A stretch of 64,000 nt of DNA from Longimicrobiales bacterium (lineage in GTDB: Bacteria; Gemmatimonadota; Gemmatimonadetes; Longimicrobiales; Gaopeijiaceae): contig OY282361.1 in NCBI GenBank assembly GCA_958295645.1, forward strand, positions 2,508,501 through 2,572,500, given 5' to 3'. Both the position numbers and the translations under genes were made by a program. The notes beneath the pieces are model-generated. The model ran no database searches. It was not told the DNA's origin and saw only the letters and a list, made by a program, of their open reading frames with translations. Numbering within the stretch: the first letter of the stretch is position 1; each line of letters opens with the position of its first letter. Below, piece after piece: positions 44,582-60,373 of the stretch.

Positions 44582-45895
44582 GTGGCGCACGACCGGATCC
44601 CCGAGAACGTGCCGCTTCTCCACCTGTCCGGAGGAGGACTTGGCGCGGCGCTTCTCCGCGGCGCAACCCTCGTCGGGGCGGTGGCGTTCGTCGTGACCCT
44701 GTTCCGCGATTCCAGCTTGGCCTGGAAGTCGTACGTGGTCAGCTGGAGCTACTTCACGTCCATCGCGGCCGGGGGCGTCGCGGTCGCGGTCGTGACCTGG
44801 ATCGTGAAGGCGAAGTGGAACTGGCCCGTGCGGCGCATCCATCAGTCGTTCTCGGCGTTCCTGCCGTTCTCCTTCCTGTTGTTCCTGCCCATGCTGGCGT
44901 TCCTGCGGGAAGACTACTTCCCCTGGATCGGCATGATGGCCGACGACGCCATCGTGCAGAAGAAGCAAGCTTGGCTGAACGTCCCCTTCTTGGTGAGTCG
45001 CAACGTCGTGGGCGTGATCGCGCTGTTCGGCCTCGCGCTGGGCTTCGTGTACCTGGCGCTTCGCCCGGACATGGGACGGCTTCGCGCGGCCTCCGCCGTC
45101 GGCGAGGACGACGAGTCCTCTCCCAGGAAGACGTCCTGGTGGGTCGAACGCTTGTCGGCCGGATGGCTGGGCGACGCCGAGGAAGCCGAGCGGAGCTACC
45201 GGCGCATGACCAAGATGGGACCGGTCGTGATCCTGGTCTATGCGGTGGTGATGACCATGCTGGCGTTCGATTGGGCGATGTCCCTGGAGCCCCACTGGTT
45301 CTCGACGCTCTTCGGCGGCTGGTACTTCATGGGCGCTTTCTGGGGCGGCCTTGCCGCCACGGCCTGCATCGCGACCTGGCTGAAGGACCGGGACGAAGCC
45401 GTCGGCCGGCACATCGGAACGCCAGTTCTGTGGGACCTCGGCAAGCTCACCTTCGCGTTCACGGTGTTCTGGACCTACTTGCTGTGGTCCCAGTACATCG
45501 TCATCTGGTACGGGAAGCTGCCGTGGGAACAGGCCTGGATCAACACGCGGACCGGAGTGCCTTGGGGCGGCCTCTCGGCCTTGGTCGTGGTGCTCTGCTT
45601 CGTGGTTCCTTTCGCCGGGTTGCTCGGGGCGCGCCCCAAGAAGAACCCGCGCGTGTTGCGGGCTTTCGCAAGCATAGTGCTCGCGGGGTTGTGGCTGTGG
45701 CACTACATGCTGGTGTTCCCGTCGTTGCACCACGCAGGCGATCCGGTGTTCGCGATCGAGACTCCCTTGATCGGCTTGATGTTCCTGGGACTGTTCCTGA
45801 CGTCCGTGCGGTGGTTCCTCTCGACTTTTCCGGTCGTTCAGGCTTGGCAACCGCCGGTGGACCCGGAGCCGCTGGAGGCCGAAGGGACTTCCTGA
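44582..45895 (+). CDS. actF: Alternative Complex III membrane subunit ActF
   Basis: This 437-residue ten-helix protein is a paralog-like structural partner of ActC. Motifs include WSYFTSIAAGGVAVAVVTW, HQSFSAFLPFSFLLFLPML, DWAMSLEPHWFSTLFGGWYF and WSQYIVIWYGKLPWE. GTG 44582 starts 2 bp after the actE stop. The 3' end overlaps the convergent GT4 gene by 58 bp, so transcripts of the two run into each other. Confidence 0.92.
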   Translation: MAHDRIPENVPLLHLSGGGLGAALLRGATLVGAVAFVVTLFRDSSLAWKSYVVSWSYFTSIAAGGVAVAVVTWIVKAKWNWPVRRIHQSFSAFLPFSFLLFLPMLAFLREDYFPWIGMMADDAIVQKKQAWLNVPFLVSRNVVGVIALFGLALGFVYLALRPDMGRLRAASAVGEDDESSPRKTSWWVERLSAGWLGDAEEAERSYRRMTKMGPVVILVYAVVMTMLAFDWAMSLEPHWFSTLFGGWYFMGAFWGGLAATACIATWLKDRDEAVGRHIGTPVLWDLGKLTFAFTVFWTYLLWSQYIVIWYGKLPWEQAWINTRTGVPWGGLSALVVVLCFVVPFAGLLGARPKKNPRVLRAFASIVLAGLWLWHYMLVFPSLHHAGDPVFAIETPLIGLMFLGLFLTSVRWFLSTFPVVQAWQPPVDPEPLEAEGTS

Positions 45896-47085
45896 CGGCC
45901 CGGCCCGTCTTGGCGCGGGCTCGCGCCGGGGCGAACAGTCGCGGCGGGGTCGCTAGTCGCGCTCGCAATCCCCTCGTAGATCGCCGTCAGCTGCGGCGCC
46001 ACGACCGAGTGCACGTACTCTTTCCGGACCTTCTCGCGATTGAAGGCGCCCATGCGTTCGCGCCGCGCCGGGTCGCCCGTCAGAGAACGCAACGCCGAGA
46101 CCAACGCGGTGAGATCGCGACGCGGCACGACGACGCCGCCCTTTCCGTCTTCGATCATGTCCGGCAGCGCCCCAGCCCGCGTGGCGACCACCGGCAGGCC
46201 GACCGCCATGGCCTCCAGCGCCGCCATCGGAAAACCCTCGGTCCAACTCGGCAACACGAAGATGTCGCTGGCGCTCATTTCCTGCAGCACCACGTCCTGC
46301 GGCACCTGGTCGACGATCCTGACGTTCGCCGGCAGATCGCCGAGCCGTTCGTCCATGTCCTTGTCGACGACTCCGAGCAGAACGAAGTCCGCCTCGCCCA
46401 TCTGGCGGGCCGCCTCCAGCAACTCGATGCACCCCTTGCGCACTTTGACTTGGCCGGTGAACAGGACGCGAACGCGTTCGGACGAACCCTGCGGGCTACG
46501 GCCTTGGCGCCGAAGAACGTCGTCTTCGATGAAGTTGGGCAACTGGAAGACGCGGCCGTTCGGCCCGGCGATTTTCCTGGCCCACTCGCAAGAGTTGGGA
46601 TCGAGGACAATGTTGGCCTCCGACATCCGCACCAGTCTGCGGAAGCGTGCGCGGCCCCTGACTCCGCGCACGAATGCCGGAACTTCACCGTGGTAGTGAA
46701 TTGCCAGCGGCAGACGTCGAAAGCGCACTAACCGTGCGTAGATACAAGACGCCAGGAGCCCGATGTCGGTGATCGAACAGTTGATGTGAACCAAGTCGAA
46801 GCGTCGCCCGGCAAGTTGGCGAAGCAGCGATGCAAGAATGCGCAACGCGCGGCTAGCCTGGCCGGCCCAAGCCGACATCTCCCGAAACCGCGATATGTTC
46901 CAGATTGCGGTGTCGACGAAATGCAAGTGGACATGGTCGGCCAAGCCATGTCGCGCTACGATCTGCGTCCACCTCTGAATGCCGCCGAAGCACCTCTCGA
47001 CGCCTCGAGACTGAACCGGGCAGGCCGTAATCAGCAGTACCCGCAGCGCCTGCTTTGGGTTCGAGCCGGTCGCGCGGAGGCCCAA
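45838..47085 (-). CDS. GT4-family glycosyltransferase
   Basis: This protein of about 415 residues is a GT-B retaining glycosyltransferase. It has RVLLITACPV, a GGIQRWTQIVA glycine-rich N-domain loop, DLVHINCSI, VLFTGQVKVRKGCIELLEAA, and the donor-site motif DIFVLPSWTEGFPMAALEAMAVGLPVVAT (EGFP...E). It probably adds a nucleotide-sugar to surface polysaccharide at the cytoplasmic face. The start is uncertain: TTG 47085 just after the epimerase stop or CTG 47046. The C-terminal 40 residues are low-complexity and overlap actF antisense. It shares a transcript with the epimerase. Confidence 0.82.
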   Translation of the reverse strand: MGLRATGSNPKQALRVLLITACPVQSRGVERCFGGIQRWTQIVARHGLADHVHLHFVDTAIWNISRFREMSAWAGQASRALRILASLLRQLAGRRFDLVHINCSITDIGLLASCIYARLVRFRRLPLAIHYHGEVPAFVRGVRGRARFRRLVRMSEANIVLDPNSCEWARKIAGPNGRVFQLPNFIEDDVLRRQGRSPQGSSERVRVLFTGQVKVRKGCIELLEAARQMGEADFVLLGVVDKDMDERLGDLPANVRIVDQVPQDVVLQEMSASDIFVLPSWTEGFPMAALEAMAVGLPVVATRAGALPDMIEDGKGGVVVPRRDLTALVSALRSLTGDPARRERMGAFNREKVRKEYVHSVVAPQLTAIYEGIASATSDPAATVRPGASPRQDGPGRQEVPSASSGSGSTGGCQA

Positions 47086-47095
47086 GGCCGTCGGC

Positions 47096-48064
47096 CTAGC
47101 CGTACTCTCGCATGTATTCGTCGTGGATCCAGCGATAGGTCTTCTCGATGCCGTACTCCAGCCCGATGTTGGGCTCCCATCCCAGTTCACGCCGGATCAT
47201 GGCATTGTCGCTGTTTCGTCCGTTCACTCCTTTGGGCGCGTCGAGCTTGTAGCGCCGAGCCAGCTTGACGCCCGCGACGTTCTCCACGGCGTCCACGAGT
47301 TCGTTGATGCTCGTCAGGACGGCGGAGCCCAAATTGATCGGATCGGCCATGTCGCTGGCAGCGATGTCCATCGTTCCCTTCACGCAGTCGTCGATGTACA
47401 TGAACGAGCGCGACTGCGTTCCGTCTCCCCAAATCTCGATTTCGTGATTGCCCGTGTGCTTGGCGTGAATCACCTTGCGACAAATTGCGGCTGGGGCTTT
47501 CTCGCGGCCGTCTTCCCAGGAACCGAAGGGGCCGTAGACGTTGTGATAGCGAGCGACGCTCGTGCGCAATCCAAAGTCCTCGCGGAAATGACGGCACATC
47601 CTCTCCGAGAACAGCTTTTCCCAACCGTAGCCGTCCTCGGGCATGGCCGGATAGGCGTCTTCCTCCCGCAACGGAACGGCGGCGACGCTCTTCTGCTTGT
47701 CCTCGTTGTAGACGCAGGCGGACGAAGAGAAGAAGAATGTGCGAAGATCGTGTTCCCGCGCCGCCAACAACATGTTGGTGTTGATCAAGACCGAAAGCAT
47801 GCAGAGCGCTTTGTTGTTCTCGATGAAGCCCATCCCTCCCATGTCGGCCGCTAGCTGATAGCAGTCCTTCATTCCTTCGCAGGCGGCCATGCAGGCTTCC
47901 GGAGCCTGAAGGTCGGCGACGACGTTGTCCGCGGCGGCGTGCAGTTGGTACCATTCGGACAAGGGCTTGCGATCCACGCAACGAACTTGGCGGCCTTGGG
48001 CCACGAAGAAGGCGGCGACATGCCCGCCGATGAATCCCCCCGCGCCGGTCACTAGAACGCTCAC
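47096..48064 (-). CDS. GDP-mannose 3,5-epimerase-like SDR
   Basis: This 322-residue extended SDR has the NAD motif VTGAGGFIGGHVA and the catalytic Ser and YxxxK in FFFSSSACVYNED and GYGWEKLFSE. The stretches HNVYGPFGSWEDGREKAPAAICRKV and WGDGTQSRSFMYIDDCV are close to plant GDP-mannose 3,5-epimerase, with the reductase/epimerase Cys in SSACVY. It would make GDP-L-galactose or GDP-L-gulose for glycans. GTG 48064 has GAGGA upstream. It leads the GT4 gene. Confidence 0.83.
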   Translation of the reverse strand: MSVLVTGAGGFIGGHVAAFFVAQGRQVRCVDRKPLSEWYQLHAAADNVVADLQAPEACMAACEGMKDCYQLAADMGGMGFIENNKALCMLSVLINTNMLLAAREHDLRTFFFSSSACVYNEDKQKSVAAVPLREEDAYPAMPEDGYGWEKLFSERMCRHFREDFGLRTSVARYHNVYGPFGSWEDGREKAPAAICRKVIHAKHTGNHEIEIWGDGTQSRSFMYIDDCVKGTMDIAASDMADPINLGSAVLTSINELVDAVENVAGVKLARRYKLDAPKGVNGRNSDNAMIRRELGWEPNIGLEYGIEKTYRWIHDEYMREYG

Positions 48065-48257
48065 GTGTTCCTCGTCGTGGTTTGGCAGTTCCGGCTTGCC
48101 GCCGAGATCTTGGTCAAGTGGGTCCCGGTAGGGCTCGCAGAGTGGGTGCGCCGACCGGGAGTCCAGGTCCGACACGGCGCCCGAGATGCAACGCAAGAAG
48201 TTCAAATGTAACGGCTCCTTGGCGCTTCTTCAACAGGAGGGGGTTGCCGGGGTGTCA

Positions 48258-48300
48258 AACCAAAGTAGAAATGTCCGGTCTTGCCAAAGTAGAAATGTCC
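48258..48300. mobile_element. tandem end repeats of an insertion-sequence remnant
   Basis: CCAAAGTAGAAATGTCC is present twice in direct order (48261-48277 and 48284-48300, 23 bp apart), immediately before an ISNCY-type transposase fragment. Similar CAAAGTAGAAATGTCC sequences form the ends of some DDE elements. The right end was not recognised, so the element is probably truncated. Confidence 0.5.
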
Positions 48301-48352
48301 TCTTTCGGATCATGTTCGGTCGGAGGCAGAACGCGATCCGGGAGAGGAGCGA

Positions 48353-48750
48353 ATGGAGTTGAGCGCAAGGGAGCGGGACCGCATGGCGGTGTTGAGGCAG
48401 GTGGACGAGGGGATGTTGGCGGCGGCGACGGGGGCGGCGCGGCTGGGGGAGAACCGGCGGGCGATCATCGCGTGCCTGAAGCGCCACGGCCGTCCGCTGG
48501 CCCGTCTATGCGGACCACGCCGGGCAGATCCAGCGCTTCGGCCAACCGAGGAGCGCTGGATTCCGTTCTGGAACGAGCGCTTCGCCGTGGCGCCCGCCGA
48601 TCCTCTGGACGCGCATCGCCCGTTGGCGCCGGACGCCGATGCCCCTATTATCTTCACCTTGGCGTTGCGGTCGGCGGGCCGCCGATTCCTTGCCTGGCGC
48701 CTCCGTCCTTCCTCGAAGGGCCTCAAGCATGTCGCGACGACCACAACGAA
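48353..48750 (+). pseudogene. ISNCY-family transposase, internally deleted
   Basis: The frame opens ELSARERDRMAVLRQVDEGMLAAATGAARLG, the N-terminal helix-turn-helix of ISNCY transposases. It then jumps to CLKRHGRPLA, part of the DDE core; the next piece (YADHAGQ) continues in another frame. The frame resumes with WNERFAVAPADPLDAHRPL, the conserved C-terminal region. A normal protein is over 400 residues, so most of the catalytic domain is missing and one frameshift is present. ATG 48353 is the original start. It sits directly before the duplicated TolQ leader at 48802, so it may mark an old rearrangement point. Confidence 0.6.
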
Positions 48751-48801
48751 CGGCCAACCCGACGTGAACCCGACCATCGGAACGGCGACCCGGCCGGCCT
48801 C

Positions 48802-49080
48802 GCTACGCCGGCGCTCGGCGTCGCAGACAGTCCAACCATCCGAACTAGACGAGAGCCGGAGGTTCCCTTGGTCAGCTTCGCAACAATCAACGAGGTGATG
48901 GTTCAACTTCCAGGCTTGGAAGGGCCGGAACTCACCCTCGCCGAGAGACTCGGACAGGCTTGGCAGGACGCCGGCGGGATGGCATGGCTGTTGGCGCTGT
49001 GCGTCTTGGTGGGTTTCGTGGTGATCGTCTGGAAGTTCTTCGACCTGATGGCCAAGAGCGGCTCGACCCGCAAGACGGTC
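48802..49080 (+). repeat. 279-bp copy A of the tolQ 5' region
   Basis: This block matches 59594-59872 over 279 bp without gaps and with seven mismatches by my count (about 97.5% identity). It carries 66 bp of leader and the first 71 codons of the TolQ/ExbB-like gene. The right edge ends exactly between codons, before the TylF part. The left edge lies just after the transposase remnant. Confidence 0.93.
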
Positions 49081-49788
49081 GCACAAGCCGTCCGCTTGAT
49101 GCCGAGGCAGAGAAACCGGTTGTTGCTTATGTGCCCCGTTCTCTACCGGTTGCGCTTTGTCCGCTACGAGAGCAATCTGGAAGAGATCGGTTTGCGAGAG
49201 CTGTATGAACTAGCAGATCGCGTGGCGTCGCTTCCCGGCGTGATCATCGAATGCGGCTCGTCTCGGTTGGGCTCCGCCATCCTGTTGGCAAGACATCTCG
49301 AGAGGCGAGGTCGGCTCCGGCCGATATTTGCTTTGGACAGCTTCGCCGGATTTCGAAGAGACGAACTGGATCGCGAGAGGGCGCTGGGGCTGACGGAAGC
49401 TTCGGACGACGCCTTCACTTCCACGAGTTTCGAGTATGTTGTTGCCAAGTTGCGCAAGCTGAAGCTGGCGGACACGATTTTCCCGGTCGAGGGCTTCTTC
49501 GAAGACACGTTGCCCGCGGTCGCCGACCGAGAGGTCGCTTTGGCGTTTGTCGATTGCGACCTGGGAGACAGCCTGAGATTCTGCGCCGAGACCATCTGGC
49601 CTCGGCTCGCGTCCGGCGGCATCATGGCGTTCGACGACTATACGGCCTGGATCGTCGGCGAGAAGAGGCCGTCGCTGGAGTTCTTTCTGGGAGTAAAGCC
49701 GGCCGTAGACGCATTTGTTGCGGACAACCTCGAGAACATCGCCGACCACGGCCTGATGAGAAGGCTGTACTACGTCAAGAAGCGCTGA
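48868..49788 (+). CDS. chimeric protein: TolQ-like N-terminus fused to TylF O-methyltransferase
   Basis: This is 306 residues from TTG 48868, with GGAGG 5 bases upstream as in the parent gene. Residues 1-71 are almost identical to the TolQ/ExbB-like protein at 59660 and include its first membrane helix (about 37-57). From residue 72 the sequence is a TylF/macrocin-O-methyltransferase domain. It has the SAM-binding GVIIECGSSRLGSAILLA, FALDSFAGF, FVDCDLGDSLRF and GGIMAFDDYTAW. A pre-fusion start may be ATG 49099. The product would be a membrane-tethered sugar or glycan O-methyltransferase driven by the tolQ leader. The second half is less GC-rich, like the neighbouring glycan genes. Confidence 0.85.
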   Translation: MVSFATINEVMVQLPGLEGPELTLAERLGQAWQDAGGMAWLLALCVLVGFVVIVWKFFDLMAKSGSTRKTVAQAVRLMPRQRNRLLLMCPVLYRLRFVRYESNLEEIGLRELYELADRVASLPGVIIECGSSRLGSAILLARHLERRGRLRPIFALDSFAGFRRDELDRERALGLTEASDDAFTSTSFEYVVAKLRKLKLADTIFPVEGFFEDTLPAVADREVALAFVDCDLGDSLRFCAETIWPRLASGGIMAFDDYTAWIVGEKRPSLEFFLGVKPAVDAFVADNLENIADHGLMRRLYYVKKR

Positions 49789-49827
49789 TGCGCAGCGGAG
49801 GACGAGCCTCCGCCTTGTTGCTTGCGG

Positions 49828-50691
49828 TCAGGGATGGACGCTTTCGCGGACGCCCTCGCGGGGCCGGATCGGCCCCCGGCTCGTCGACGGGGCGACGGAA
49901 AGCCGCCCGGGCCAGTACTGCAACAGCTTCCTCGCGGGCTTCAACAGGGGAACGAGAAAGGCGCCGTACAGGCGCCGACGCCAAATCATGCGAGCTACCT
50001 CCATGTTTCCCTTGACGAAGGAAGAACTCAATCCGCCGGGGGCGACCTTGGCGATTGTGCGTTCAATGTACGTCGTCTTGATGTGATGCTGCATCATCAC
50101 GCGAAGAAAGAATTCGTAGTCCGCGGCGATGGGGTAGGCCGTGTTGTACGGACCGTATTGGTCTATGACCTGTCTTCGCATGAAGACGCCCGGGTGCGGC
50201 AACTGCCATCCGGTATACAACTTGAGCGATGAACGATTCCCTGCTTTCCAAGACCGTATGACCTTGTTGTCGCTGTCGACATAGACCACGTCTCCGTAGC
50301 AGGCGTCAAGCTGCTCTTCCGCGAAACGCTTCATCGCGTCCTTGATCACCCACGGATCCGCGTAGCGATCGTTGGCCCCGAGAAAGGCGATCACGTCCCC
50401 CGAAGCTATACGGTTGCCTTTGTTGATGGCGTCGAATATGCCTTGGTCGGGCTCTTGGATCAGTACCGAAATGCGATCCCGGTACTCGGCGATCACGTCC
50501 AAGGTCCGGTCGGTCGAGCCGCCGTCCACGACGACGAGTTCCGGACGGGGTTCGTACGTCTGCGAGAGGATGGACTCGATCGCTAGGCGCAGACGCACCT
50601 CGTTCAGCACGGGCACAACCACCGATACGGTCACGCGGTTGCCGTGGTTCGCCCGGGCGCTCGGGGTCTGGTTCAACTTGGCTTCCGGCAC
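49828..50691 (-). CDS. GT2-family glycosyltransferase
   Basis: This GT-A inverting glycosyltransferase of about 287 residues has VSVVVPVLNEVRLRLAIESILSQTY, the nucleotide-binding VVDGGSTDRT, DQGIFDAINKGNRIASGDVIAFLGAND (DxD-like site) and a later PIAADYEFFLR. It matches WcaA/'GT2 family colanic-type' enzymes. GTG 50691 is a tentative start because the upstream frame has no recognisable conservation. It faces the chimeric methyltransferase convergently, 39 bp apart. Its role in surface polysaccharide follows from the neighbours. Confidence 0.8.
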   Translation of the reverse strand: MPEAKLNQTPSARANHGNRVTVSVVVPVLNEVRLRLAIESILSQTYEPRPELVVVDGGSTDRTLDVIAEYRDRISVLIQEPDQGIFDAINKGNRIASGDVIAFLGANDRYADPWVIKDAMKRFAEEQLDACYGDVVYVDSDNKVIRSWKAGNRSSLKLYTGWQLPHPGVFMRRQVIDQYGPYNTAYPIAADYEFFLRVMMQHHIKTTYIERTIAKVAPGGLSSSFVKGNMEVARMIWRRRLYGAFLVPLLKPARKLLQYWPGRLSVAPSTSRGPIRPREGVRESVHP

Positions 50692-50863
50692 TCGTCTATT
50701 CTCTGAGGCGACGGCGTGGCGTTCCGTCGGCGTGGGGCGTCGTTTCGCGGGGAGATCGTTCCATTGAATATACCGGTCGAGGAGTCTCGTGCAAGAAGCC
50801 GCCTCTCTTGCGTCGGGCCGCACCAAGGCCGGCACGCACTGGACGGCCTCCAGCAACCAGGCT

Positions 50864-59593: not shown

Positions 59594-59872
59594 GCTACGC
59601 CGGCGCTCGGCGTCGCAGACAGTCCAACCATCCGAACTAGGCGAGAGCCGGAGGTTCCCTTGGTCAGCTTCGCAACAATAAACGAGGTGATGGTTCAGCT
59701 TCCAGGCTTGGAAGGGCCGGAACTCACCCTCACCGAGAGACTCGGACAGGCTTGGCAGGACGCCGGCGGGATGGCATGGCCGTTGGCGCTGTGCGTCTTG
59801 GTGGGTTTCGTGGTGATCGTCTGGAAGTTCTTCGACCTGATGGCCAAGGCCGGCTCGACCCGCAAGACGGTC
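59594..59872 (+). repeat. 279-bp copy B (source) of the tolQ 5' region
   Basis: This is the copy that begins the complete TolQ/ExbB-like gene. It matches 48802-49080 in direct orientation, 10,792 bp away. It is taken as the source because the coding sequence continues into the rest of TolQ, whereas the other copy breaks off into an unrelated methyltransferase. Confidence 0.93.
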
Positions 59873-60373
59873 AAGAACGTGGACGAACTCCTGACCCAGC
59901 AGCGAGTCGACGAAGCGCTGGAGACGACGCGCGAGTCGGATTCGCCGGCCGCCAACATCCTGTACGCGGGCCTGGAGCGCAGCGACGAGGGGATGGACCG
60001 CGTCACCAAGGCGATCGAGAACCGCGGCCTCATCGAGCTCAGCAAGCTCGAGAGCGGTCTGGTGGTGCTCGCGACGCTCACCAACGTGGCGCCCTTGTTG
60101 GGCTTCCTGGGGACGGTGCTCGGGATGATCGAGGCCTTCCAGGCGATCCAGCTTGCCGGCGAAGTGGACGCCCAGACGGTCGCCGAAGGGATCAAGATCG
60201 CCCTGACCACCACTGCGGCCGGTCTCGCGATCGCGATTCCTGTGAGCATCGCGCACAACTACTTCGTGTCGCGCATCGACCACTTGGTCGTCGACATGGA
60301 GGAATCGGCGCAGAAGATGATCGACACCCTCTTCTCGATGCAGGCCGGCAGGCCGACTTCGGCGGGGAGCTAG
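59660..60373 (+). CDS. tolQ: TolQ/ExbB/MotA-family proton channel protein
   Basis: This 237-residue inner-membrane protein has a first helix (about 37-57), then the cytoplasmic loop. The two conserved helices of the MotA/TolQ/ExbB domain follow in GLVVLATLTNVAPLLGFLGTVLGMIEAF and IALTTTAAGLAIAIPVSIAHNYF. It couples the proton motive force to TolR/ExbD-type partners. TTG 59660 is preferred because GGAGG lies 5 bases before it. No TolR/ExbD gene follows; a lytic transglycosylase does, in the same frame after TAG. Its 5' part is duplicated at 48802. Confidence 0.88.
   Translation: MVSFATINEVMVQLPGLEGPELTLTERLGQAWQDAGGMAWPLALCVLVGFVVIVWKFFDLMAKAGSTRKTVKNVDELLTQQRVDEALETTRESDSPAANILYAGLERSDEGMDRVTKAIENRGLIELSKLESGLVVLATLTNVAPLLGFLGTVLGMIEAFQAIQLAGEVDAQTVAEGIKIALTTTAAGLAIAIPVSIAHNYFVSRIDHLVVDMEESAQKMIDTLFSMQAGRPTSAGS

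Follow-up and report, generated by a model that had tools for sequence, protein, structure and literature searches.

The question raised by this locus is whether an open reading frame that begins as a TolQ-like membrane protein and continues as a methyltransferase is a genuine gene and, if so, how it was formed and what its product may do. The sequence analyzed (the window) is a stretch of 64,000 nt from the single-contig, 2.886-Mb genome of a Longimicrobiales bacterium. In a preliminary description of the window, the frame had been regarded as a recent gene birth by 5' capture, in which an otherwise complete TylF O-methyltransferase gained the start site, ribosome site, and membrane anchor of a TolQ/ExbB-like gene located 10.8 kb away. 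The features of the frame and of its source are as follows.

48868-49788, plus strand: chimeric open reading frame with a tolQ-derived N terminus and a TylF-type methyltransferase, 306 aa, TTG start, frame open to the stop at 49788
48802-48867, plus strand: copied tolQ leader, 66 bp, direct repeat with 59594-59659
48868-49080, plus strand: copied tolQ codons 1-71, with three amino-acid differences from tolQ (T25A, P41L, and A64S)
48973-49041, plus strand: predicted membrane helix GGMAWLLALCVLVGFVVIVWKFF (residues 36-58), from hydropathy and an AlphaFold model, followed by a basic stretch
49081-49128, plus strand: linker joining the tolQ piece to the conserved start of the methyltransferase; the linker of copy A in genome G025 (described below) is shorter by 21 nt
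49129-49788, plus strand: methyltransferase domain from a conserved ATG (MCPVLYR), 219 aa
59594-59872, plus strand: donor tolQ leader and codons 1-71, from the repeat alignment
59660-60373, plus strand: intact tolQ/exbB-like gene (MotA_ExbB match at residues 93-214) in the conserved locus MBL - lplA - tolQ - slt

The direct repeat formed by 48802-49080 and 59594-59872 is 279 nt long, consists of the 66 bp leader plus tolQ codons 1-71, and has a spacing of 10,792; 272 of the 279 bases are the same and 7 are mismatched (97.5% identity), in agreement with the near-identical copy reported earlier. A search of the whole genome with the tolQ 5' repeat (E = 1e-133) returned two copies only, which ruled out a recurrent multi-copy module. 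Identity with tolQ stops at 49080, and the chimera is not tolQ from codon 72 onward; as had been stated, the junction falls on a codon boundary and creates no stop, the frame being open for 306 codons. The sequence GGAGG is present at 48858-48862, 5 nt before the TTG, and a single open frame holds the start with its ribosome site, the helix, and the methyltransferase domain. Compared with the TolQ/ExbB/MotA proton-channel subunits (PF01618), the N-terminal leader, TM1, and following basic stretch of the chimera are almost the same as those of the local tolQ, whereas the MotA_ExbB domain (tolQ residues 93-214) is wholly absent; a profile search with the 306 aa gave no PF01618 match.

The direction of copying was established by comparison with G025, a Longimicrobiales MAG (CATQHQ01) of a different genus in the same family, in which genes for a metallo-hydrolase, lplA, tolQ, and a lytic transglycosylase follow one another in the order seen at 57.9-62.7 kb in the window. 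Since tolQ lies at this ancestral locus, it is the donor and 48802-49080 is the copy; the reverse assignment was ruled out by the conserved lplA-tolQ-slt synteny. The locus thus has what identifies a chimeric gene, namely a source gene intact at its ancestral position and a truncated copy fused in frame.

In the remainder of the frame, residues 113-261 matched TylF (PF05711) with an E value of 9e-19 and 68.2 bits versus a gathering score of 23, and residues 127-258 matched Methyltransf_24 along its full length. The TylF profile was covered at positions 80-232 of 264 only, as in both G025 copies, and positions 1-79 were unmatched in the chimera; the earlier claim of completeness therefore holds for the short methyltransferase domain and not for the TylF profile as a whole. 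The nearest solved folds were those of SpnH, NovP, MycF, and CalS11, all sugar O-methyltransferases. With this family (PF05711; SpnH 4cdz/4ce0, NovP 2wk1, MycF 4x7u, CalS11 3tos) the chimera shares the Rossmann methyltransferase domain, conserved acidic residues (FVDCD; FDDY), and a glycan setting, but it has the first helix of TolQ in place of the N-terminal third of the profile and is only ~20-24% identical to the solved members. The FVDCD and FDDY motifs align with LDGDL and IDDY/VDDY of SpnH, NovP, and MycF, and all three methyltransferase copies retain D229, D256, and D257, as do the solved relatives; the conserved acidic residues of TylF-type enzymes have a metal-binding role. The MCPVLYR start is likewise conserved in all three copies, near the point where they begin to agree, and distant short methyltransferase relatives begin near the same ATG at 49129, which is probably the native start of the methyltransferase.

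Two further copies of the methyltransferase subfamily were found, both in G025. Copy A (L015:9637-10395, minus strand) reads MPHYLHLGVPVGGPPIPCLERFFDLMTKSGSIRKTASPTFQRLKLMCPVLF, and within it RFFDLMTKSGSIRKT corresponds to the last part of the tolQ piece (~46 nt), in frame with an 87%-identical methyltransferase. These 46 nt agree with the chimera at 42 positions and with tolQ at 40. Directly before the remnant lies a segment of the window termed segment X (48636-48697), and a deletion of ~330 bp, equivalent to ~48698-49030, converts the window arrangement into that of copy A, which has lost the anchor with its methyltransferase frame still open. The tolQ gene of G025 itself is far off (49-56% at the N terminus) and reads WKFFDLLSKGGGTKKIL at the site equivalent to the remnant; it is too divergent to have been the source of the remnant. 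Copy B (L016:9542-10375, plus strand) contains no tolQ sequence and represents the unfused form. Both the fusion and the unfused homologue that had been proposed as checks were thus found in a relative. An in-frame, IS-linked fusion of tolQ and a methyltransferase is real, and a decayed form of it exists in another genus; the 5' partial duplication therefore stands, while its being confined to this genome, as a recent birth would suggest, does not.

Core DNA identity was 92% between the window and copy A, and 90% both between the window and copy B and between copies A and B. These values, together with the common junction, are consistent with a fused pair (window and A) with B as the unfused outgroup; the fusion is hence older than the separation of the window and A. 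The methyltransferase gene was found in no other genome among those sampled (~390 in the class and, a second time, in the phylum), and because the rest of the sampled phylum does not have the cassette, the fused form probably moved between genera. Plasmid relatives of the methyltransferase were only 26-33% identical, and none were found in phages. In the vicinity of copy B there are two occurrences of a sequence like ccttcaaacgcttgaagcttatgtgcc, ~100 bp apart and just 5' of the methyltransferase (L016:9650-9770), indicating another rearrangement at the same 5' boundary, and a sulfotransferase-family gene (L016:10904-11932) adjoins; copy A adjoins glycosyltransferase-like genes.

The surroundings of the chimera in the window are made up of the following features.

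45838-50856, no strand: inserted glycan block of 5 kb between ActF and SpoU, containing a GT4, an epimerase, an IS remnant, the chimera, and a GT2
45838-47190, minus strand: GT4
47096-48205, minus strand: GDP-mannose 3,5-epimerase-like gene, closest to GME structures (2c59 and others), E 1e-89
48252-48640, plus strand: ISNCY-family remnant, internally deleted and frameshifted, with the left end and N- and C-terminal pieces of the transposase, from alignment to the intact G025 copy L046
48623-48651, plus strand: sigma-70-like site TTGGCG-17-TATTAT, recognized only by its match to the consensus (9/12; shuffles give an expectation of 0.0)
48636-48697, plus strand: segment X, 95% identical to the segment directly 5' of the tolQ remnant in copy A
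49828-50856, minus strand: GT2

The GC content of the genes in the inserted block is 0.60-0.65 versus 0.71 for the backbone, and in the relatives G024 and G084 a single serine-hydrolase-like gene (~1.3 kb) lies between ActF and SpoU instead. Among 39 genomes of relatives, a set to which G025 did not belong, homologues of the epimerase (49-54%) were found in only four. The glycan-gene surroundings noted previously were borne out by the GT4, GME-like epimerase, and GT2 adjoining the chimera; given these neighbors, our best guess for the reaction is that a sugar of a membrane-linked glycan becomes methylated.

ISNCY remnants adjoin all three methyltransferase copies. The intact G025 relative (L046) was found to encode an ISNCY transposase at 320 bits versus a cutoff of 250 (NF033594), whereas the window remnant, with its internal deletion and frameshift, contains no intact transposase; a tblastn search of plasmids with the transposase remnant gave no match. 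Copy A has IS pieces on both flanks; copy B is followed by IS sequence and preceded by a match to an IS end. The arrangement resembles the passenger genes of IS-bounded, composite-transposon-like cassettes in that every copy adjoins ISNCY remnants, on both sides in the case of copy A, but the IS copies are internally deleted, and what the sequences show is an IS-linked cassette rather than an intact, working composite transposon.

The promoter-like site is located 5' of the copied leader and arose where the IS remnant (-35) meets segment X (-10). It was the sole match, no such site being found within the copied leader or at tolQ, and a promoter inside the leader was accordingly discarded as a candidate. 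The captured start and ribosome site of the preliminary description are present, in that the TTG and GGAGG were copied, but the native start is probably the internal ATG and the leader would supply a ribosome site at most.

The carry-over of a membrane helix from tolQ was upheld as a prediction, the Kyte-Doolittle mean over 19 residues being 2.60 for the chimera versus 2.32 for tolQ. An AlphaFold model of low confidence placed a helix at 38-63; the model, built on a four-row alignment, was poor overall (mean pLDDT 59, although ~75-88 for most of the methyltransferase core), and only its fold match was used. At residue 41 in TM1, proline is present in tolQ and in 9 relatives and leucine in the chimera, a change consistent with a lost TolQ constraint and with helix hydropathy kept or raised. 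Residue 64 is serine in both the chimera and the G025 remnant, which had been considered a derived marker common to the two; serine is the commonest residue there among relatives, so this marker is weakened and the argument for a shared origin rests on the common breakpoint and segment X. Rows L011 and L013 were left out of the comparison of relatives at these two residues (wrong strand). In TolQ/ExbB proteins TM1 runs from periplasm to cytoplasm, and the methyltransferase would therefore face the cytoplasm, where SAM is.

Selection on the methyltransferase was assessed by NG86 comparison of the cores, which gave dN/dS values of 0.75 (window/A), 1.02 (window/B), and 0.66 (A/B). The three methyltransferases (49129-49785, L015, and L016) differ about equally at all codon positions, which is unusual for an open-frame enzyme and suggests relaxed or diversifying selection. 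In a neutral simulation 2.1 stops were expected, with P = 0.12 for none, so that the absence of stops proves little. The length differences among copies after the junction (21, 6, 30, 3, and 3 nt) all keep the frame; for those inside the methyltransferase, at least four in number, the chance of this is ~0.01 if each was independent. Relative to both G025 copies, the window also has a compensating -G/+G pair at ~49378-49390 that alters two or three residues and restores the frame; this pair could also represent paired homopolymer sequencing errors. The frame-keeping length changes are more informative than the lack of stops about selection, which is weak (dN/dS 0.7-1.0).

On balance we favor the following history, with confidence slightly on the positive side. 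A short, IS-associated cassette of the TylF type would have gained the 279-bp tolQ 5' end by illegitimate recombination, the source being the chromosomal gene of the window lineage or of a close one. The join, which is in frame, puts a complete SAM-methyltransferase domain behind the start, the ribosome site, and the first membrane helix of TolQ. The fused cassette would predate the separation of the window and G025 forms, given their common junction, and would have moved between genera in a direction deduced indirectly, copy A having lost most of its tolQ piece. The likeliest product, which we put at about an even chance, is a membrane-anchored glycan O-methyltransferase with its N terminus outside, a helix, and a cytoplasmic methyltransferase, following the topology of TolQ TM1; it may O-methylate a sugar of the glycan built by the neighboring glycosyltransferases and epimerase. 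More tentatively, and with some doubt, it may be proposed that an IS-borne methyltransferase took a host 5' end as a prefabricated module for expression and targeting, became anchored, and then spread between genera as a fused cassette. The two-place 97.5% copy, the conserved tolQ locus, the copy A remnant with segment X, the unfused copy B, the ISNCY remnants at three copies, the rarity in the phylum, the frame-keeping lengths, the raised helix hydropathy, and the sugar O-methyltransferase folds argue for this account; dN/dS values of 0.66-1.02, P = 0.12, the open frame of copy A with no anchor, and the conserved internal ATG argue against it. From sequence comparison, the formation history of the fusion is well supported and the function as an anchored enzyme is plausible.

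Among the alternatives, the one to be taken most seriously, unlikely as it is, is that the product is a soluble enzyme of 219 aa begun at ATG 49129, the tolQ piece being a chance passenger that serves as an upstream start at most and the in-frame join a one-in-three accident. The retention of MCPVLYR in every copy, the nearby starts of distant short relatives, and the lack of an anchor in the G025 copies speak for it; however, no Shine-Dalgarno-like sequence precedes 49129, whereas TTG 48868 has a well-spaced GGAGG, the tolQ frame is free of stops, and the linker changed length by a multiple of three. Less probable still is a decaying accessory gene, in which case the cassette would be IS debris on which selection is slight or absent, and the chimera would be a non-functional accident that has gained no stop so far. 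A dN/dS near 1 and near-equal change across codon positions would fit decay, as would the degenerate IS remnants nearby, the 0.12 probability of no stop under neutrality, and rarity in the phylum, but not the frame-keeping length differences, including the +1/-1 pair, nor the kept aspartates D229, D256, and D257.

Two readings concern the junction itself. Independent tolQ 5' captures in the two genomes, or a window piece kept tolQ-like by gene conversion, would explain why the piece is only 2.5% from tolQ when the two genomes are 8% apart in their methyltransferases, and the serine at residue 64 may be ancestral to tolQ. Such separate events are nevertheless improbable, since the right-hand breakpoint and the upstream segment X are common to both genomes, the G025 tolQ is too divergent as a source, and conversion accounts for the low divergence only and not for the common order. 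An assembly chimera, in which unrelated reads were joined through the tolQ repeat, had been named as the outcome that would overturn the gene, and the 279-bp repeat does offer a possible join point. It is almost certainly wrong: the genome is a single contig, the repeat copies have seven fixed differences, the divergent second genome has the same order of segment X, tolQ remnant, and methyltransferase, and a join made through the repeat should have left tolQ context on one flank, but neither has any. An assembly join was thus ruled out by the single contig and the second genome.

The in-frame fusion resembles chimeric genes formed elsewhere by partial 5' duplication beside another gene, which likewise have a copied leader and start, an intact source gene, and a codon-boundary join. 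The parts of the literature on such genes considered here describe mainly eukaryotic cases, whereas the window case is bacterial, IS-flanked, and common to two genera. It is a clear instance of bacterial gene formation by 5' partial duplication, in which one can see the donor, its fused copy, a homologue that is not fused, and a subsequent deletion product, and it can be ordered relative to the separation between genera. The biological consequence would be modest unless anchoring matters, and the case permits testing whether a ribosome site and a membrane helix taken from another gene come into use, persist, or are lost.
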